A stretch of DNA of 64,000 bases. Origin: Geovibrio ferrireducens. Its GTDB lineage: Bacteria; Chrysiogenota; Deferribacteres; Deferribacterales; Geovibrionaceae. Each line of letters begins with the position of its first letter. Position 1 is the stretch's first letter. Location: positions 248,001 through 312,000 of the forward strand of contig NZ_JAJAPB010000003.1 in the NCBI RefSeq assembly GCF_026226615.1. The letters are read 5' to 3'. The notes beneath the pieces were generated by a model. That model was given only the letters and a program-made list of their open reading frames with translations, was not told the DNA's origin and ran no database searches. The translations under genes were made by a program, and so were the position numbers. Shown in pieces: positions 56,720 through 63,880 of the stretch.

Positions 56720-56780
56720 CAGTTCCGGACATACGCAGATAATCTTTACAATTTAATCTGACATTTTTTAACATTTTGAC

Positions 56781-56810
56781 TTGATAATCACCTCAAAAAG
56801 CATATATGAT
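56781..56810 (+). promoter_or_regulatory. promoter of the metal-ATPase operon
   Basis: -35 TTGATA (56781-56786), 18 bases, -10 TATGAT (56805-56810), start near 56817, about 50 bases before the coding region. The -35 box is part of TTGATAAT, a sequence resembling one arm of Fur-type sites. Confidence 0.45.
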
Positions 56811-56865
56811 TAGACAGAAACTAACTTTGTTAACATCATTCTTAATAAAGTTATAGGTGGCTAAA

Positions 56866-56879
56866 TTGATAATAATCAA
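56866..56879. promoter_or_regulatory. FNR-type palindrome across the ATPase start codon
   Basis: TTGATAATAATCAA is a perfect TTGAT-N4-ATCAA site. It overlaps the chosen start codon and encodes the first residues, so it may be chance, or a repressor-type site downstream of the promoter at 56781-56810. Confidence 0.3.
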
Positions 56880-59076
56880 ACACTCTCTCAAAGGGCGTAT
56901 CCGCCTGAAATATAAAAATCTGATCGGCTCTCCCTCCCTCGCTTCCGCTGTGGAGGAAGCACTCCGTAGCCTTAAGGGTGTGAGCGGTGCGAGATGCAGC
57001 CACATAGGGGGCAGCATAGTGATAAACTATGACTGCACCGTTGTTCTGCCGTCGGAGCTGATTAAGGCAGTGACAGAAGTGAAACCCGCCCCGCGCAGAG
57101 CGGCAAAAGAACCCGCCTGCAAGAGGCAGGGCTGCGTATGCGTGAGGAATGAGGAGCCCAAGGCAGACACAACTGCAACGGAGTTCGGCATACTTTCCGC
57201 CGTCCTTGGCGGCGTTTTCATACGCACAAAAATATTAAGGCTGGCGGTCGGCCAGTCCCTGTTCAGCCCGCTGGGGCTTATAGCAGCCGCTTTCTCTGTT
57301 CCTATTATAGCACGGGCTGTGAAGGACTTCGGCAAAACAGGCAAAGTTTCCCTGAACAGCTTTCTCGGAGCCGGTGTAGCATCTGCCGCAATAGCGGGCG
57401 AAGCGCTCACAGCACTTGAGATACTCTGGGTAAACACGGGAAGCGACCTGCTGAACGGCTATGTCACCGAGAAATCCCGCAAGGCGATAAAAAATATACT
57501 GGATGTCACATCCAAAACAGCCTTCGTCTACAGAGACGGACAGGAGCTTGAAGTCCCCGTGGAGCAGATTCACGTCGGCGACACAGTGGTCATCCACACA
57601 GGGGAGAAAATCTCAGTTGACGGGCTCATAACCTGCGGTGAGGCTGCTGTAAATGAGGCCTCCATAAACGGCCGCAGCGAGCTTGTGCACCGTTTCGAGG
57701 GCGAACAGGTATTCGCCGGAACCTACGTGCAGAACGGGCTGATATATGTTCAGGCAAGCCACGTGGGTGATGCCACATATCTTTCAAGGATACTCTGCCT
57801 TGTGGAAGATTCCCTCGGAAACAAGGCTCCCATAGAGCTTGAGGCGGACAGACTGGCCAGAAGGCTGGTGAACACAGGCTTCTGGATGACACTGGGAACC
57901 TTCCTCATCACCCGCAATTTTTACAGGGCATTCTCCGTACTGCTGGTGATGACATGCCCCTGCGCCACAGTTCTCGCCGCATCCTCCGCCGTGAGTGCGG
58001 CCATTTCAAACGCCGCGTCCAGAGGTATACTTATCAAAGGGGGCAGATACCTTGAGGAAGCAGGTTCGCAGGAATCATTCTGCTTTGACAAAACAGGCAC
58101 AATCACCACTGATGAGCCGAAGGTTATCTCCATCATCCCCGTTAAAGGAAAAACAGAGTACGATGTAATATATTCAGCATATACAGCGGAGCTTCACAAC
58201 AGGCATCCCGTAGCCGTGGCGATACGCGACAAGGCGCGGGAGATGTGCAGCACGGAAAGCACCCATGCCGTGTGTGAAACCATCCTCGGAATGGGTGTGC
58301 GGGCGGAAGCCATGGGCAGGGAGATTTTCATCGGCAACGCCAAGCTGATGAACAGATACGGCATAAATATCTCCAAGCTCACCAAAGCGCGGGATGAAGC
58401 TGAAAAGCTCGGTTTAAGCGTCATATATGTGGCGGAAGACGGCAGGGCGATCGGTATTCTCACTGTGGAAAACAGGCAGAAGGATAATGTTGAGGCTGTT
58501 ATAAAAGGCCTCCGTGAGGAAGGGGTGAAGGAGTTCATCCTTGTGACCGGAGATGAAAAATACTCCGCTCAGGCCATGGCGGACAGGCTGGGCTTCAACA
58601 AATGCCACTACTCGGTTCTGCCCGAACAGAAGGCGGACATAGTAGCTGAGATTCAGCAGTACCACAAGGTCACCATGATAGGCGACGGCATAAACGATGT
58701 ACTGGCTCTTGCCAAGGCGGATCTGGGCATAGCCATGGGTGCGGCGGGGTCTGACGTTGCTGTGGAAGCGGCGGACATAGCCCTTGTGGACGATGACCTT
58801 GAAAAAATACTTTACCTGAGAAAACTCAGCAGAAAAACAAAGGAAGTAATACACCAGAACTTCATGCTCGCAACAGGCTCAAATGTGGCGGGCGCGTTTC
58901 TCGGCGCGGCGGGGCTTCTGCCTCCGGTTATGGCAGGTCTCCTGCACATAGCCCACACAGCGGGTGTTCTGGCAAACTCTTCCAGACTTTTAAAATATGA
59001 AATGCAGCCTCTCAACGTTGCAGAGACGGAAGCGGTTGAATTAACGGAGGATGGGGAAAAATGCTCGAAGATTTAA
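56866..59076 (+). CDS. P1B-type heavy-metal ATPase with CPC motif and degenerate TGE motif
   Basis: A 736-residue membrane ATPase. The N-terminal domain lacks GMxCxxC but opens with IIIKHSLKGRIRLKY. A Cys-rich stretch ACKRQGCVCVRNE (about 85) follows. The transport helix has MTCPCATVLAASS and the phosphorylation site DKTGTIT; HP (NRHPVAVA), TGD and GDGINDV are intact. The actuator loop reads INGRSELV where active pumps have TGES, so the dephosphorylating Glu is Arg. I choose TTG 56866, with AGGTGG five bases upstream, over GTG 56857, which lacks a site. It heads a seven-gene operon with a second ATPase. Confidence 0.85.
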   Translation: MIIIKHSLKGRIRLKYKNLIGSPSLASAVEEALRSLKGVSGARCSHIGGSIVINYDCTVVLPSELIKAVTEVKPAPRRAAKEPACKRQGCVCVRNEEPKADTTATEFGILSAVLGGVFIRTKILRLAVGQSLFSPLGLIAAAFSVPIIARAVKDFGKTGKVSLNSFLGAGVASAAIAGEALTALEILWVNTGSDLLNGYVTEKSRKAIKNILDVTSKTAFVYRDGQELEVPVEQIHVGDTVVIHTGEKISVDGLITCGEAAVNEASINGRSELVHRFEGEQVFAGTYVQNGLIYVQASHVGDATYLSRILCLVEDSLGNKAPIELEADRLARRLVNTGFWMTLGTFLITRNFYRAFSVLLVMTCPCATVLAASSAVSAAISNAASRGILIKGGRYLEEAGSQESFCFDKTGTITTDEPKVISIIPVKGKTEYDVIYSAYTAELHNRHPVAVAIRDKAREMCSTESTHAVCETILGMGVRAEAMGREIFIGNAKLMNRYGINISKLTKARDEAEKLGLSVIYVAEDGRAIGILTVENRQKDNVEAVIKGLREEGVKEFILVTGDEKYSAQAMADRLGFNKCHYSVLPEQKADIVAEIQQYHKVTMIGDGINDVLALAKADLGIAMGAAGSDVAVEAADIALVDDDLEKILYLRKLSRKTKEVIHQNFMLATGSNVAGAFLGAAGLLPPVMAGLLHIAHTAGVLANSSRLLKYEMQPLNVAETEAVELTEDGEKCSKI

Positions 59077-59366
59077 TCGCGGCGAAAAAATACGTCACGG
59101 TGGCTCACCATGTGGAAGGAAGGATAAGGCTCAAGGTTGACCCTTCCGTGGTGAAGGATCCCGTGAGCAAGAAACTGGAACAGATAAGCAGCAGCCTCCC
59201 CGGTGTGCTCGACACAAGGGTGAACATAATGGCGCGCTCCGTGGTTATACGCTACGACCCGAACATCATAGACCCGAAAACATTTGAAAACCTGATAACA
59301 ACAAAAGATACAGAAATTTGCAGAGAGATACTCAAACGTTACGAGGACACTTACATGCAAAGTTAA
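59061..59366 (+). CDS. stand-alone HMA-like domain protein with GRIRLK motif
   Basis: A 101-residue protein of ferredoxin-like (heavy-metal-associated) pattern. After an N-terminal helix it has VTVAHHVEGRIRLKVDPSV, a helix (KKLEQISSSLPGVLDTRV) and strands VVIRYDPNII. The metal-binding Cys pair is absent. The same GRIRLK domain begins both ATPases of the operon. This layout resembles FezC-type proteins of ferrosome clusters. GGATGGGGAAAA precedes ATG 59061, inside the 3' end of the ATPase gene. Confidence 0.75.
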   Translation: MLEDLIAAKKYVTVAHHVEGRIRLKVDPSVVKDPVSKKLEQISSSLPGVLDTRVNIMARSVVIRYDPNIIDPKTFENLITTKDTEICREILKRYEDTYMQS

Positions 59367-59377
59367 GGAGGCAGTAA

Positions 59378-60061
59378 ATGGGAAAAAAAGCCGCTGATGC
59401 GGAAAATCCCGTAAAGGAAGAAAGCTGCACCGATAAGCCGCAGAAAGATTCTGCATCGGGAAAAGAAAAAACAACGGAAGACACTCCTCAGAATGCCTTC
59501 AGAGCATCGGAGAAACCGGAAAGCGCAGAAGAAGCGCCCGCCGGAAACCAAACGGAAATACCCTACGGATACGCACCAAACGGAGAAGAGTTCACAGGTA
59601 TGCCTGAATACGGATTTCAGCAGCTGCCCTACGGCCATATGCCGCCGCCTCCCCCTCCTTACGGTTACGGCTTTATGCCGCCTCAGCCGCCTTACGGGTA
59701 TATGCCTCAGATGCCGTACGGATATATGCCGCCACCGCCGCCGCCGTACGGTTACATGCCGCCTCAGCCGCCTTACGGCTATATGCCGCAAATGCCTCAT
59801 GGGGCACAGCACACAGAGCACCACGGGGAAGACCCCTTCGGCATGATCTTCGGCAAATTCGGGGACATGATCAAGGAAAACCCCAATCTTTCCGCAGTGG
59901 GAAAAATTGCGGATGCGTCAGGAAGCGACTTTATCAAGGGAATGCTGATCGGAGCGGGCGTTGCCATGCTCTTTTCCAACGATTCCATAAAGGATTCACT
60001 GATGAGTATTTTCTCTAAAACACTCGGCGGCATGACAGACGATGCCGAAGAGACCGAATAA
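59378..60061 (+). CDS. Pro/Tyr/Gly-Met-rich repeat protein with C-terminal membrane segment
   Basis: A 227-residue protein in three parts: a charged N terminus (1-60; Lys/Glu/Ala/Pro), a low-complexity middle (about 80-142) built of repeated PYGYMPPQP and PYGYMPPPPP units, and a C-terminal hydrophobic segment (SDFIKGMLIGAGVAMLFSND, about 185-204) with a following amphipathic helix. The C-terminal segment shares the pattern KGxxxGAGxAxLxxN with the later 104-residue protein. TAAGGAGGCAGTAA precedes ATG 59378. Such tyrosine-proline repeats suit a flexible coat or self-associating scaffold. No known family is recognised for the whole protein. Confidence 0.8.
   Translation: MGKKAADAENPVKEESCTDKPQKDSASGKEKTTEDTPQNAFRASEKPESAEEAPAGNQTEIPYGYAPNGEEFTGMPEYGFQQLPYGHMPPPPPPYGYGFMPPQPPYGYMPQMPYGYMPPPPPPYGYMPPQPPYGYMPQMPHGAQHTEHHGEDPFGMIFGKFGDMIKENPNLSAVGKIADASGSDFIKGMLIGAGVAMLFSNDSIKDSLMSIFSKTLGGMTDDAEETE
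59625..59800 (+). repeat. imperfect tandem repeats encoding PYGYMPP units
   Basis: DNA-level repetition with a longer period of about 78 bases: the segment CCGCCTCAGCCGCCTTACGG occurs twice (59680 and 59758 regions). It lies within the 227-residue protein gene and could change length by slippage. Confidence 0.7.
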
Positions 60062-60072
60062 GGAGGATTTTT

Positions 60073-60477
60073 ATGCACCATCTGGCAAAAGCGGCCGCAG
60101 GAGCCTCTCTCATAGGGGCGGCGGCAGGCGCTGTAGTGGGCGGAGCAGTTTCCGCGGCAAAACAGGCGCAGGATGTTAAGGAAGGAAAAATCACCAAGGA
60201 AGAAGCGGCCAAAAGAACCGCAAAAGACGCAGCAGGCGCAGGAGCTGCGACAGCAGTGGGCGTTGCGGCTGTGAGCCTTCTCAGGCTCGGCGGCGTTTTC
60301 GGCATACTCACGGTTTTTGCCGTTGCCGCAGGCACAAAATACCTTCTGGACACCGAAGGCAAAAAGGTCTGTAAAAAAGTGAAAGCAGCAGCAGGCAAAG
60401 CCGCCGGAAAAGTAAGCGAAGCGGCAGCCTCCGTCAGTGAAAAGCTTAAAGACGAAGAACCCTTAAAATCAGAATAA
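60073..60477 (+). CDS. glycine-zipper membrane protein
   Basis: A 134-residue Ala/Gly/Val-rich protein. Its start AAAGASLIGAAAGAVVGGAV and a second stretch AGAGAATAVGVAAVS are glycine-zipper-like hydrophobic segments that could pack in membranes. A third hydrophobic segment GGVFGILTVFAVAAGTKYLL follows, then a Lys-rich helical tail (KKVCKKVKAAAGKAAGKV). AAGGAGGATTTTT precedes ATG 60073, one of the strongest ribosome sites in the window. No family is known to me. The composition recalls glycine-rich magnetosome or organelle-membrane proteins, which is only an analogy. Confidence 0.75.
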   Translation: MHHLAKAAAGASLIGAAAGAVVGGAVSAAKQAQDVKEGKITKEEAAKRTAKDAAGAGAATAVGVAAVSLLRLGGVFGILTVFAVAAGTKYLLDTEGKKVCKKVKAAAGKAAGKVSEAAASVSEKLKDEEPLKSE

Positions 60478-60498
60478 TATATAAAAAAGGAGATTAAC

Positions 60499-60813
60499 AT
60501 GAGCGATCAGAAACAGAATCCCCAGAACCCTCAGGCCCCCCAGTACGGATATTACCCCTACCCCTATCCTCCCCAGCAGCAGTATGCGGATGCTTCCGTT
60601 TACCCCCACCTTAAACAGTGGTTCAACTTCCGTGAGCCCAACTATGTAAAAGGCTTTGCAGTGGGTGCGGGCATTGCCCTTCTGCTCACCAACCCCACTG
60701 TTAAAAAAGCCATAGTCAAAGGCGTTGTTAAGGTTTGGGGCGGACTTCAGTCCGGCGTTGAAGAACTGAAAGAGCAGATCAGGGACGTTCAGGCGGAAGT
60801 CGAAGGAGAATAA
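60499..60813 (+). CDS. Pro/Tyr-rich small membrane protein (YtxH-like)
   Basis: A 104-residue protein. Its N terminus is Gln/Pro/Tyr-rich (QYGYYPYPYPPQQQYADASV); then comes NYVKGFAVGAGIALLLTNPT, a single membrane segment, and a charged amphipathic C-terminal helix (VEELKEQIRDVQAEVEGE). The membrane segment repeats the KGxxxGAGxAxLxxN pattern of the 227-residue protein, so the two are paralogues sharing a Pro/Tyr-rich head and a short tail anchor. AAAGGAGATTAAC precedes ATG 60499. Confidence 0.75.
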   Translation: MSDQKQNPQNPQAPQYGYYPYPYPPQQQYADASVYPHLKQWFNFREPNYVKGFAVGAGIALLLTNPTVKKAIVKGVVKVWGGLQSGVEELKEQIRDVQAEVEGE

Positions 60814-60815
60814 GC

Positions 60816-61037
60816 GTGAGCGGCGAAAAGAAGGCGGCGAAGAAGAAAAACCCGTCCGCCGTAATGCGCAAACGCAGGCTGGTCAAAAACGCCATGATAC
60901 TCACCATGGCGGCGACTGTTGTCTCAGGGTTCGGTAAAGGCAAGGCGGCTAAGCATGTGCACATAGCCGCCGGGTGCGCCCTTGTGGGCTTAAGCATTTA
61001 CCACAACTACCTTTACCCTGAAAATATGAAAAGTTAG
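60816..61037 (+). CDS. 73-residue basic two-helix membrane protein
   Basis: A small protein with a very basic N terminus (EKKAAKKKNPSAVMRKRRLV), a first hydrophobic segment (AMILTMAATVVSGFG) and a second with HVHIAAGCALVGLSIYHNYL. The His-rich H-V-H-I-A-A-G pattern resembles small membrane proteins with histidine ligands for heme or metal. It starts with GTG 60816 behind AAGGAGA, two bases after the preceding stop. No family is certain. It could play the FezA-like small-membrane-protein role in a ferrosome-type cluster, but that is a guess. Confidence 0.7.
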   Translation: MSGEKKAAKKKNPSAVMRKRRLVKNAMILTMAATVVSGFGKGKAAKHVHIAAGCALVGLSIYHNYLYPENMKS

Positions 61038-61060
61038 AAGGTGCTGTCATTTTAGGCTCA

Positions 61061-63160
61061 ATGTTTTTCACCGGACTGGAAAAAGTCGGAATAGTGCATG
61101 ACATGCCGGGGCGAATCCGCCTCAAGGCTCCCGTTCTGGGCAACCCCGCTCTGGATGCAACCCTTGTGGAATCCGGTCTGGAGCAGATTAAGGGCGTGAA
61201 GTCCGTCCGTGTTAACCAGAAGGCAAAAACGGCAGTGGTCAGCTTTGACAAAAATACAGATGTACGGGGCGATGTTCTGGATGTTCTCTCAGCGTTCAGC
61301 CATACGGTTTTCAACGCAGAGGAGGAACTCCAGAACTCTCCGGATTTAATCAATGTCTACTGGGCGGGAACAATGTGGATTCTCAAGCTGTTCCTGCCGC
61401 AGGGGCTCAGGCGCCCGCTTACTTATCTCGGCGCCGCACCTATCCTCATGGAGGGTATAGAAACCCTGTTCACCAGAGGGCTCAAGGTAGAAGTGCTGGA
61501 TGCGGCGGTTATCTCCATGCTGCTTGCCAGAAAAGACTACTTCACGGCAGGCTCCATAACCTTCCTGCTTAATCTGGGGCATTATCTTGAGGAATCCGCC
61601 GAGTACAGATCCGACAAGATGCTGAAAAGCCTCATCAAGCCCGAAGTGGAATACGTCTGGGTTGTCAGGGGGCAGTCGGAGGAAAAAACGGCGGTCAGTG
61701 ACCTCCAGATTGGCGATATGGTGCGTGCAGGTTCCGGGGAGATGATACCTGTGGACGGCAAAGTCGCCTCCGGAGAGGGGCTTGTGAATCAGGCCTCAGT
61801 AACCGGGGAAAGCCTGCCTGTTCATATCAAGCCGGGGGACTACGTATATTCCGGCACAGTGATGGCGGAAGGAAAAATCATCATCGAAGCCGAAAAGGTC
61901 GGCTCCGAAACAACAACGGCCCGCATAGCCAAATTCATAAGCAACTCGCTTAAAAACAAATCCAGAACGGAAGTGAAAGCCTTCGCCGCGGCTGACAAAA
62001 TGGTTCCCGTGACCTTTGCCGCAGGGCTTGCGACACTGCTTATCACCAGAGATTTCAGACGCGCCTCCTCCGTTCTTTCCGTGGACTATTCATGCGCACT
62101 CCAGCTTGTCACGCCGACAGCCATAAAAGCCAGCATGTTCAACGCCGCAACGGAAGGCATATTCATCAAGGGCGCTCAGGCGCTTGAGAACCTTGCGGAG
62201 ATTGACACAATCATCTTTGACAAAACAGGAACGCTCACAAAAGGGATGCTCTCCGTGACGGAGGTTCAGCCCTATAACGGATATAATGAAAACGAAATAG
62301 TCAGAATTGCGGCCTCTGCCGAGGAATATTACTCACACCCCATAGCCTCCGCCGTTGTGAAGGAGGCCGAAAACCGCGGCCTCAAAACGGAGCAGACAGG
62401 CGAGGTGGACTTCATCATAGCCCACGGCGTTTCCGCCTATGTAGGGGGCAAAAACGTCCTTGTGGGGAGCCATCACTTCGTGGCGGAGGATGAAAAAATT
62501 GTCTGCTGTTTCGCTGATGAAGATGCCCGGAAAATGCGTACAAAGGGGCAGACAATACTTTATGTCGCCATAGACGGAAAGCTCTGCGGGCTGATTGCGC
62601 TCAAAGATACCTTGCGTGATGAATCCGCTCAGGTTATAAAAGAGTTAAAGAAGCACGGCGTTAAAAAGACCGTAATGCTCACAGGCGACCACCGTGATTC
62701 CGCACTGCATGTGGCGGAACTGCTCGGAATAGACGAAGTTTATTATGAAATGAAGCCCGAAGACAAAGCGGGCATAGTGAAACAGCTTAAGAATCAGGGG
62801 TGCAGAATCGCCTTCGCAGGAGACGGGGTGAACGACGCACCCGCCCTGCTCACCGCAGATGTGGGCATCAGCCTTCCGCAGGGGGCGGATCTCGCTAAAG
62901 AGACAGCCGCAGTCATACTCCTTCGGGAAGACCTTATGGGAATAGTCAAGGCAAGGGTTCTTGCCGTGAAAACCATGAAGGTTATAAGGCAGATGTTCCG
63001 GTTTAACATAGGCGTGAACACCGCTACCGTCGCTCTCTCGCTCATGGGCAGGATAAGCCCGCTGGCAAGCGCCCTGCTCCACAACGGAACCACGCTTTCG
63101 ACACTGATTTACGCCCTCAGCCTCTCCTCATACGGCGTAAAAAGAAAAAAGGAGAAGTAG
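61061..63160 (+). CDS. P1B-6-like metal ATPase with SCA motif (FezB-like)
   Basis: A 699-residue membrane ATPase. The N-terminal HMA-type domain has VGIVHDMPGRIRLKAPVLG and no CxxC. All catalytic motifs are present: TGES (residue 248), DKTGT (D387), the HP pair in YYSHPIASA, LTGD and GDGVNDAPAL. The metal-binding helix has VDYSCALQLVTP instead of CPC, with Cys345. SCA-type P1B ATPases of this kind are the core (FezB) of ferrosome clusters, where they are thought to load iron. TAGG lies a few bases before ATG 61061. A FeoA-type gene follows directly (next base). Confidence 0.85.
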   Translation: MFFTGLEKVGIVHDMPGRIRLKAPVLGNPALDATLVESGLEQIKGVKSVRVNQKAKTAVVSFDKNTDVRGDVLDVLSAFSHTVFNAEEELQNSPDLINVYWAGTMWILKLFLPQGLRRPLTYLGAAPILMEGIETLFTRGLKVEVLDAAVISMLLARKDYFTAGSITFLLNLGHYLEESAEYRSDKMLKSLIKPEVEYVWVVRGQSEEKTAVSDLQIGDMVRAGSGEMIPVDGKVASGEGLVNQASVTGESLPVHIKPGDYVYSGTVMAEGKIIIEAEKVGSETTTARIAKFISNSLKNKSRTEVKAFAAADKMVPVTFAAGLATLLITRDFRRASSVLSVDYSCALQLVTPTAIKASMFNAATEGIFIKGAQALENLAEIDTIIFDKTGTLTKGMLSVTEVQPYNGYNENEIVRIAASAEEYYSHPIASAVVKEAENRGLKTEQTGEVDFIIAHGVSAYVGGKNVLVGSHHFVAEDEKIVCCFADEDARKMRTKGQTILYVAIDGKLCGLIALKDTLRDESAQVIKELKKHGVKKTVMLTGDHRDSALHVAELLGIDEVYYEMKPEDKAGIVKQLKNQGCRIAFAGDGVNDAPALLTADVGISLPQGADLAKETAAVILLREDLMGIVKARVLAVKTMKVIRQMFRFNIGVNTATVALSLMGRISPLASALLHNGTTLSTLIYALSLSSYGVKRKKEK

Positions 63161-63880
63161 ATGCTTAACCTTCAAAACGCCGAAAGCGGCCGCTGCTATA
63201 TAATAAAAGGAACCCCGCAGGGGGAATCCGCCCAGAAGCTCGCTTCTCTTGGGCTTTATAAAGGCAGTGCCGTAACCAAGCTCGAAACTGAAGATATAAA
63301 ATGCCCTACCGTCAAAGTTGACACAAAAAACGGCGTAAGGGTGATAAGCGGCCAGCTCGCCAAACATATCACCGTCCGTGCGGGTTCAGGAGAGCCGAAA
63401 CCCTTTTACACTGCCCCTCTTTCATCCACTGTAATCACTCACAGTCTCGGCAGGTGCGATAAAAACGCCGCCAGACTCGCCATGCTCGGCATAAAGGAAA
63501 GAATAAAGCTGAAAATAATAAAATACCTGCCCCCAATGGAGTATGTGGTTATGGTTAATCACAAAAACCGTGTGCGCATCTCAGAGGCTGTAGCCGCAAT
63601 GATAATAGGCGATACGGAGAACAGGAAGAATTTTCAGTTCACATTTTCACCCAAAGGGGCGGAATTTAAAGTTAACGGCATAGCGGCAGGGAAGAAAATA
63701 ACCGCCTTCCTCTGCGGTGTTGATATATGCGTAGGGTCTGTAATAAGCATGGAAGGAATAGAAAGCGGCAAGCGTGTGGATCTGGATGCTGAACAGGATG
63801 TCGTTCTCCATACCCATGAAGGGCTTATAATAACCATGTCTGCGAAAACCGCCTCGATGATTGAGGTCGGGCAGGGATAG
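63161..63880 (+). CDS. protein with tandem FeoA-like domains
   Basis: A 239-residue cytoplasmic protein made of about three SH3-like FeoA-type repeats (about 1-75, 80-160, 165-239). Each has the small beta-barrel pattern with an L-x-x-x-G-I/L-x-x-G segment: AQKLASLGLYKGSAV, AARLAMLGIKERIKL and FLCGVDICVGSVI. FeoA normally is a 75-residue partner of the ferrous iron transporter FeoB, so the trio points to iron. No FeoB begins before the window ends. AAAGGAGAAGTAG precedes ATG 63161 and the gene directly follows the second ATPase. Confidence 0.75.
   Translation: MLNLQNAESGRCYIIKGTPQGESAQKLASLGLYKGSAVTKLETEDIKCPTVKVDTKNGVRVISGQLAKHITVRAGSGEPKPFYTAPLSSTVITHSLGRCDKNAARLAMLGIKERIKLKIIKYLPPMEYVVMVNHKNRVRISEAVAAMIIGDTENRKNFQFTFSPKGAEFKVNGIAAGKKITAFLCGVDICVGSVISMEGIESGKRVDLDAEQDVVLHTHEGLIITMSAKTASMIEVGQG

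Follow-up and report, generated by a model that had tools for sequence, protein, structure and literature searches.

The region from position 56866 to 63880 of the window (the whole stretch of 64,000 nucleotides analysed here, belonging to a 2.97-Mb genome) most probably corresponds to an enlarged and conserved eight-gene ferrosome (fez) operon, with a FezC split over two genes, a second pump (A1) and a putative FeoA-type adaptor. We assign to this reading a probability of about 0.8. It is built on the phylogeny of an SCA-type ATPase, on the matches of the small proteins to Fez components and on the conservation of the gene set in other genomes.

Organization of the locus

Eight co-oriented open reading frames were found on the plus strand, separated by gaps of 23 bp or less or by short overlaps, and they form one operon-like block. 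The features are:

56720..56865, plus strand: intergenic leader (sequence reading)
56866..59076, plus strand: A1, P1B-type ATPase with CPC in M4, HIAH in M6, a degenerate HMA_2 N-domain and a Cys-rich linker
59061..59366, plus strand: stand-alone HMA_2 protein matching the N-terminal half of FezC (Pfam and profile search)
59378..60061, plus strand: Pro/Tyr/Gly-rich protein with a C-terminal FezA-like glycine-zipper helix (sequence)
60073..60477, plus strand: glycine-zipper membrane protein, homologous to magnetosome MamC (NCBIfam)
60499..60813, plus strand: FezA-like protein with a P/Y/Q-rich N-terminus, a GxGxA helix and an E-KE-D-AE amphipathic tail (profile search)
60816..61037, plus strand: probable FezC-type cytochrome half, basic, two-helix, with invariant K24, H49 and H63 (alignment, profile)
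61061..63160, plus strand: FezB, P1B-6-type ATPase with DYSCA in M4 and HNGTT in M6 (tree, motifs)
63161..63880, plus strand: triple FeoA-like protein (Pfam, profile, model)

The order is thus A1 (CPC ATPase), HMA_2 protein, P/Y-rich protein (227 aa), glycine-zipper protein (134 aa), P/Y-rich protein (104 aa), 73-aa protein, SCA ATPase and FeoA-like protein (239 aa). All eight frames were retrieved on the plus strand where the original prediction had placed them, and each gene that it listed is present; its count of seven is valid only for the genes preceding the FeoA-like one, the total being eight. Shine-Dalgarno-like sequences (AGGAG, GGAG or AGGTGG) precede seven of the eight starts, in agreement with the mostly strong ribosome sites announced earlier, and the upstream sequence of the FezB start (61061), inspected like that of the seven others, contains no obvious one. 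The longest frame of the first gene begins at GTG 56857, but the TTG at 56866, preceded by AGGTGG, is preferred because the GTG lies inside this Shine-Dalgarno sequence; the start chosen in the original prediction is therefore the better one.

Pfam and NCBIfam searches of the block identified two heavy-metal P-type ATPases with HMA_2 domains, the stand-alone HMA_2 protein and a FeoA domain, and the TM6 (M4) motif reads CPC in gene 1 and SCA in gene 7, so that family matches and motifs both bear out the predicted gene types. None of the four small proteins reached the cut-off of a Pfam or NCBIfam family. Rfam and tRNA scans of the window were empty. The block ends at 63880 and the genes beyond lie on the opposite strand: a YefM/YoeB toxin-antitoxin pair directly past the operon (L007:7894-8395), straddling and lying just beyond the window end, followed by a gene for an S1-domain Tex-like protein.

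Phylogenetic position of the SCA ATPase

In a tree of 113 rows, the SCA ATPase (61061-63160) falls within the DYSCA/DFSCA FezB clade (SH-aLRT 99), far from the CopA-like and ZntA-like (Cu/Zn) pumps. The same clade contains the putative FezB of a three-gene reference cluster, whose genome we take to be that of Desulfovibrio magneticus RS-1; the two proteins belong to different ones of the two main FezB clades. At the M6 position, FezB carries H-N first, without a second histidine. No FezB relative was found in viral contigs. By its sequence, the SCA ATPase is best identified as FezB. The original prediction of a ferrosome-like (Fez) cluster is strengthened by this result, since the comparison with FezB on which it had hung groups the ATPase with FezB and not with Zn/Cu exporters, and since the small proteins match Fez parts. 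Its proposal that the second, SCA-type ATPase is foreign to known clusters fails, the SCA ATPase being by the tree FezB itself, and the idea of this protein as the odd member of the cluster was dropped.

A ferrosome gene cluster, fezABC, was reportedly described in D. magneticus by Grant and colleagues in 2022. In the putative D. magneticus locus, fezB is flanked by genes for an 86-aa and a 146-aa protein, i.e. a FezA-FezB-FezC layout. The window resembles it by its FezB-type SCA ATPase, an adjacent FezA-like helix protein, and HMA_2 and two-histidine FezC parts, and would therefore contain FezB and a FezA-like protein, together with a FezC divided between two genes; it differs by this splitting and by the additional CPC ATPase, MamC-like, P/Y-rich and triple-FeoA genes. 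As D. magneticus makes ferrosomes and its putative cluster has three genes, the A1, MamC-like and FeoA proteins should be accessory at most.

Conservation and co-inheritance

The eight genes follow one another in this order in 9 of 12 genomes belonging to the same family, as they do in six loci of Desulfobacterota (L179-L183, L188), and this recurrence indicates that the block is not a chance assembly. In a Desulfarculaceae MAG, the set is distributed over two contigs (L138, L048), and the 13 further Desulfovibrionaceae loci examined have all eight components, with one gene displaced upstream in five of them. Window-type FezB (FezB-I) was defined in Desulfovibrionaceae by an E-value below 1e-160, a threshold picked on the listing of matches. 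Among 288 Desulfovibrionaceae genomes, FezB-I is present in 43, A1 in 45 and both in 42 (Fisher 1e-45), and, of the 141 genomes whose FezB-like matches were all of other types, a single one (G624) has A1. In 41 of 44 paired loci, A1 and FezB-I lie on one contig at a distance of 3.7-5.1 kb; the three remaining pairs are on different contigs of fragmented assemblies. Furthermore, the pairwise distances of A1 and FezB are correlated over 28 loci (r = 0.97, Mantel p = 1e-4), a value which partly reflects shared species history, yet shows that A1 is inherited with the cluster.

Several variants were met in the same survey. Seven Desulfovibrionaceae loci (L234, L235, L236, L242-L244, L250) have a third P1B ATPase, with ACA or VCS in place of SCA, adjoining the eight-gene cluster; in some cases, HMA and MamC-like genes of its own accompany it on the opposite strand. 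Fez loci devoid of A1 (L045-L047, L079, L176) include in the cluster a protein of 200-250 aa, identified as a DUF2202 protein in L079 (Pfam) and L176 (annotation), and several of these proteins end in a glycine-rich hydrophobic helix. Other families of the same taxonomic order (L034-L039) have a minimal trio, in which FezB (SCA) is joined by a small protein with a glycine zipper and by an HMA_2 protein about 100 aa long. In L185, two different CPC ATPases (CPCAT and CPCGIGL) flank an HMA gene in a fez-like block, with no FezB detected in the 16 kb covered. DYSCG P1B ATPases flanked by HMA_2-like proteins occur in L089/L159 (a Bacteroidales MAG) and L193 and could possibly represent another compartment- or metal-related group. 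Finally, the FezB-like frame of L248 has 1012 aa, about 300 residues more than other FezB.

The CPC ATPase A1

The SCA ATPase being assigned to FezB, the extra pump of the cluster is the CPC ATPase, A1. In the 113-row tree, A1 and its relatives (27 rows) stand together as a separate clade (support 100). This clade is nested in a wider group (support 97) that also includes FezB along with some further P1B ATPases, and most members of the group have HMA_2-like N-domains. The residues conserved in A1 are C367-P-C369 of M4 and H697-x-x-H700 of M6 (numbering from the GTG frame). A Cys-rich linker, located between the degenerate, non-CxxC HMA_2 domain and the first helix, has on average 3.3 cysteines in 19 fez-linked A1 proteins versus 0.3-0.5 in FezB. 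The A1 model has a P1B fold (mean pLDDT 79), and the closest solved structures are CopA and ZntA.

CPC sites usually mean copper or zinc, which counts against the role proposed here for A1. With the fold and CPC motif that it shares with CopA (P1B-1) and ZntA (P1B-2), A1 might be an ordinary Cu/Zn exporter of the plasma membrane, guarding against metals mis-imported in iron starvation, with ferrosomes built by the other genes only. We regard this as rather unlikely, given the co-inheritance of A1 with FezB-I and its separation from CopA and ZntA by clade, HxxH motif, non-CxxC HMA_2 domain and Cys-rich linker. In addition, the TM7/TM8 signatures of the P1B-1 (Cu; YN(X)4P and MXXSS) and P1B-2 (Zn; K and DXG) exporters (PMC4932525) are lacking in A1, where QNF...N and H-I-x-H-T...NSSR are found instead. 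Some A1-like genes outside fez loci also have feo genes close by: feoB is the direct neighbour in L184 and lies two genes away in L158, and feoA is nearby in L186. No feo neighbour was detected for the others (L187, L189-L192). These neighbours point to an iron-related cargo, though without proof, and A1 would transport Fe(II) or a companion thiophilic metal.

A FezC encoded by two genes

The 101-aa HMA protein (59061..59366) matches Pfam HMA_2 (1.9e-8). Profiles of this protein and of the 73-aa protein (60816..61037) both match the putative D. magneticus FezC (8e-16 and 3e-12, respectively), one half of this 146-aa protein corresponding to the HMA profile and the other half to the 73-aa profile. 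An alignment of 22 relatives of the 73-aa protein, among them the putative D. magneticus FezC, shows no substitution at K24, H49 or H63. The window 73-aa protein alone gives no significant match to Pfam DUF4405 (E 0.18), its support for this domain being the family-wide pattern only, in which 12 of 22 members match DUF4405. In Desulfurispirillum indicum, FezC has been demonstrated to be a haem-b cytochrome of DUF4405-like type (PMC10979944). These data are in agreement with the 73-aa protein as the FezC-type cytochrome half and the HMA_2 protein as the other half, so that the DUF4405-like region, the histidine pair and the HMA domain of FezC would all be represented, as two genes, and the 73-aa protein is predicted to bind haem.

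The small membrane proteins and the MamC relative

The 86-aa gene preceding the putative D. magneticus fezB matches the profile of the 104-aa protein (60499..60813) modestly (2e-5), compatible with a small glycine-zipper membrane protein of FezA type beside fezB. In the 227-aa protein (59378..60061), a stretch of 85 residues contains 28 P, 14 Y and 12 G. The fez loci of Hahella, Rhodomicrobium and Sulfurospirillum, and those of an Arcobacter plasmid and an Azospirillum plasmid, encode relatives of the P/Y-rich, the glycine-zipper and the 104-aa protein, and these proteins are thus ordinary parts of the loci of one FezB clade. A neighbourhood survey of the 227-, 134- and 104-residue proteins, suggested with the original prediction, hence places their relatives in fez loci of several bacteria, contrary to the view that these proteins are an unusual part of the gene set.

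The 134-aa protein (60073..60477) matches NCBIfam MamC at 2.6e-11 with 43.7 bits; this score is below the curated cut-off of 100 bits, which makes the protein a relative of MamC and not MamC or an equivalog itself. MamC is matched by 21 of 22 members of the glycine-zipper family (best 4.7e-19), the alignment covers nearly the whole length of the profile, and two reversed-sequence controls gave no match. From these alignments, the family appears homologous to magnetosome MamC. Searches of the MamC-like family against the PDB gave no meaningful match. In the part of the open-access literature naming both terms that was covered, a homology link between ferrosomes and MamC is absent.

Since P1B ATPases extrude cytosolic metal, the whole locus might alternatively be a metal-efflux operon delivering Fe(II) to the periplasm without any organelle. 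We consider this improbable, as the ATPase lies inside the FezB clade, the small membrane proteins have their counterparts among Fez parts and in MamC, and the block contains no outer-membrane or periplasmic efflux partner. The MamC match of the 134-aa protein could also be taken to indicate a piece of a magnetosome island, which is hardly credible in view of the FezA/FezB/FezC content, of the lack of any other magnetosome family among the Pfam/NCBIfam matches in the block and of the presence of the MamC-like gene in the fez loci of numerous bacteria for which magnetotaxis is not known.

The FeoA-repeat protein

Residues 3-73 of the last protein (63161..63880) match Pfam FeoA (1.1e-8, 35.4 bits versus a cut-off of 23). 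Three FeoA-like repeats align mutually by profile (probability 79-93%), repeats 2 and 3 being recognized by profile comparison only, and the FeoA-repeat protein of the original prediction is confirmed with one clear domain and two further repeats. The model consists of three similar units (pLDDT 91), for which Foldseek returned mostly FeoA entries; none was below E 0.001 and, the best E being 0.026, they are used as support only. FeoA proteins are known as FeoB partners. The window protein differs from FeoA by its three tandem repeats and by the lack of linkage to feoB, the two feoB genes of the genome being located elsewhere. Resting on the partnership of FeoA with FeoB, an adaptor role for the triple-FeoA protein is a guess.

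The leader

A likely promoter can be read in the leader (TTGATA 56781-56786, 18 bp, TATGAT 56805-56810). The best Fur-like box of the window leader scores 10/14, reached by 27% of shuffles, and none above chance was found in the window's genus; this counts against the ferrosome explanation. In the relatives of genus g3, Fur-like boxes of 11-13/14 precede the operon (shuffle p 0.03 or less).

Discussion

Taken by its sequence, the block is a fez locus, in which an organelle could be formed as follows. The FezA-like, MamC-like and P/Y-rich glycine-zipper proteins would shape or coat vesicles of the inner membrane, and FezB would pump Fe(II) from the cytosol into their lumen. A split FezC, composed of the HMA_2 protein and the cytochrome half with its two histidines, would handle electrons and set the redox state of the iron. 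A1 would act as an additional pump associated with the ferrosome, carrying Fe(II) or the companion metal, and the triple-FeoA protein might act as a cytosolic adaptor coupling Feo-type iron handling or supply to the pumps.

Rhodopseudomonas palustris has a six-gene fez operon, RPA2333-2338 (PMC12016538). The fez loci of Azospirillum, Rhodomicrobium and Hahella, which we liken to this type by its description, contain HMA_2, MamC-like, FezA-like and FezB genes in a similar order; unlike the window, they have neither CPC ATPase nor FeoA-repeat gene. The MamC-like gene of the window lies outside a magnetosome context. What truly sets the locus apart from simpler fez loci is its CPC ATPase, its triple-FeoA protein and its FezC in two genes, and with these parts the distinct variant envisaged in the original prediction is upheld. 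The locus would belong to an already known type of system, with genuinely new parts, and some of its gene inventory may already be published.

We further propose, tentatively, that A1 founds an undescribed P1B group (CPC in M4, HxxH in M6, Cys-rich linker) specialized for iron compartments, that the ferrosome is here a two-pump organelle, with two iron pumps or with one for iron and one for a second metal, and that the MamC-like protein represents a protein of the membrane or mineral interface which ferrosomes and magnetosomes have inherited from a common ancestor. On the preferred reading of an enlarged fez operon, a second, larger ferrosome architecture would be common to Deferribacterota and many Desulfobacterota, with a co-inherited second pump of unusual metal site and a sequence tie to magnetosome MamC. 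This would bear on the loading of iron organelles in bacteria and on whether both organelle types share parts.
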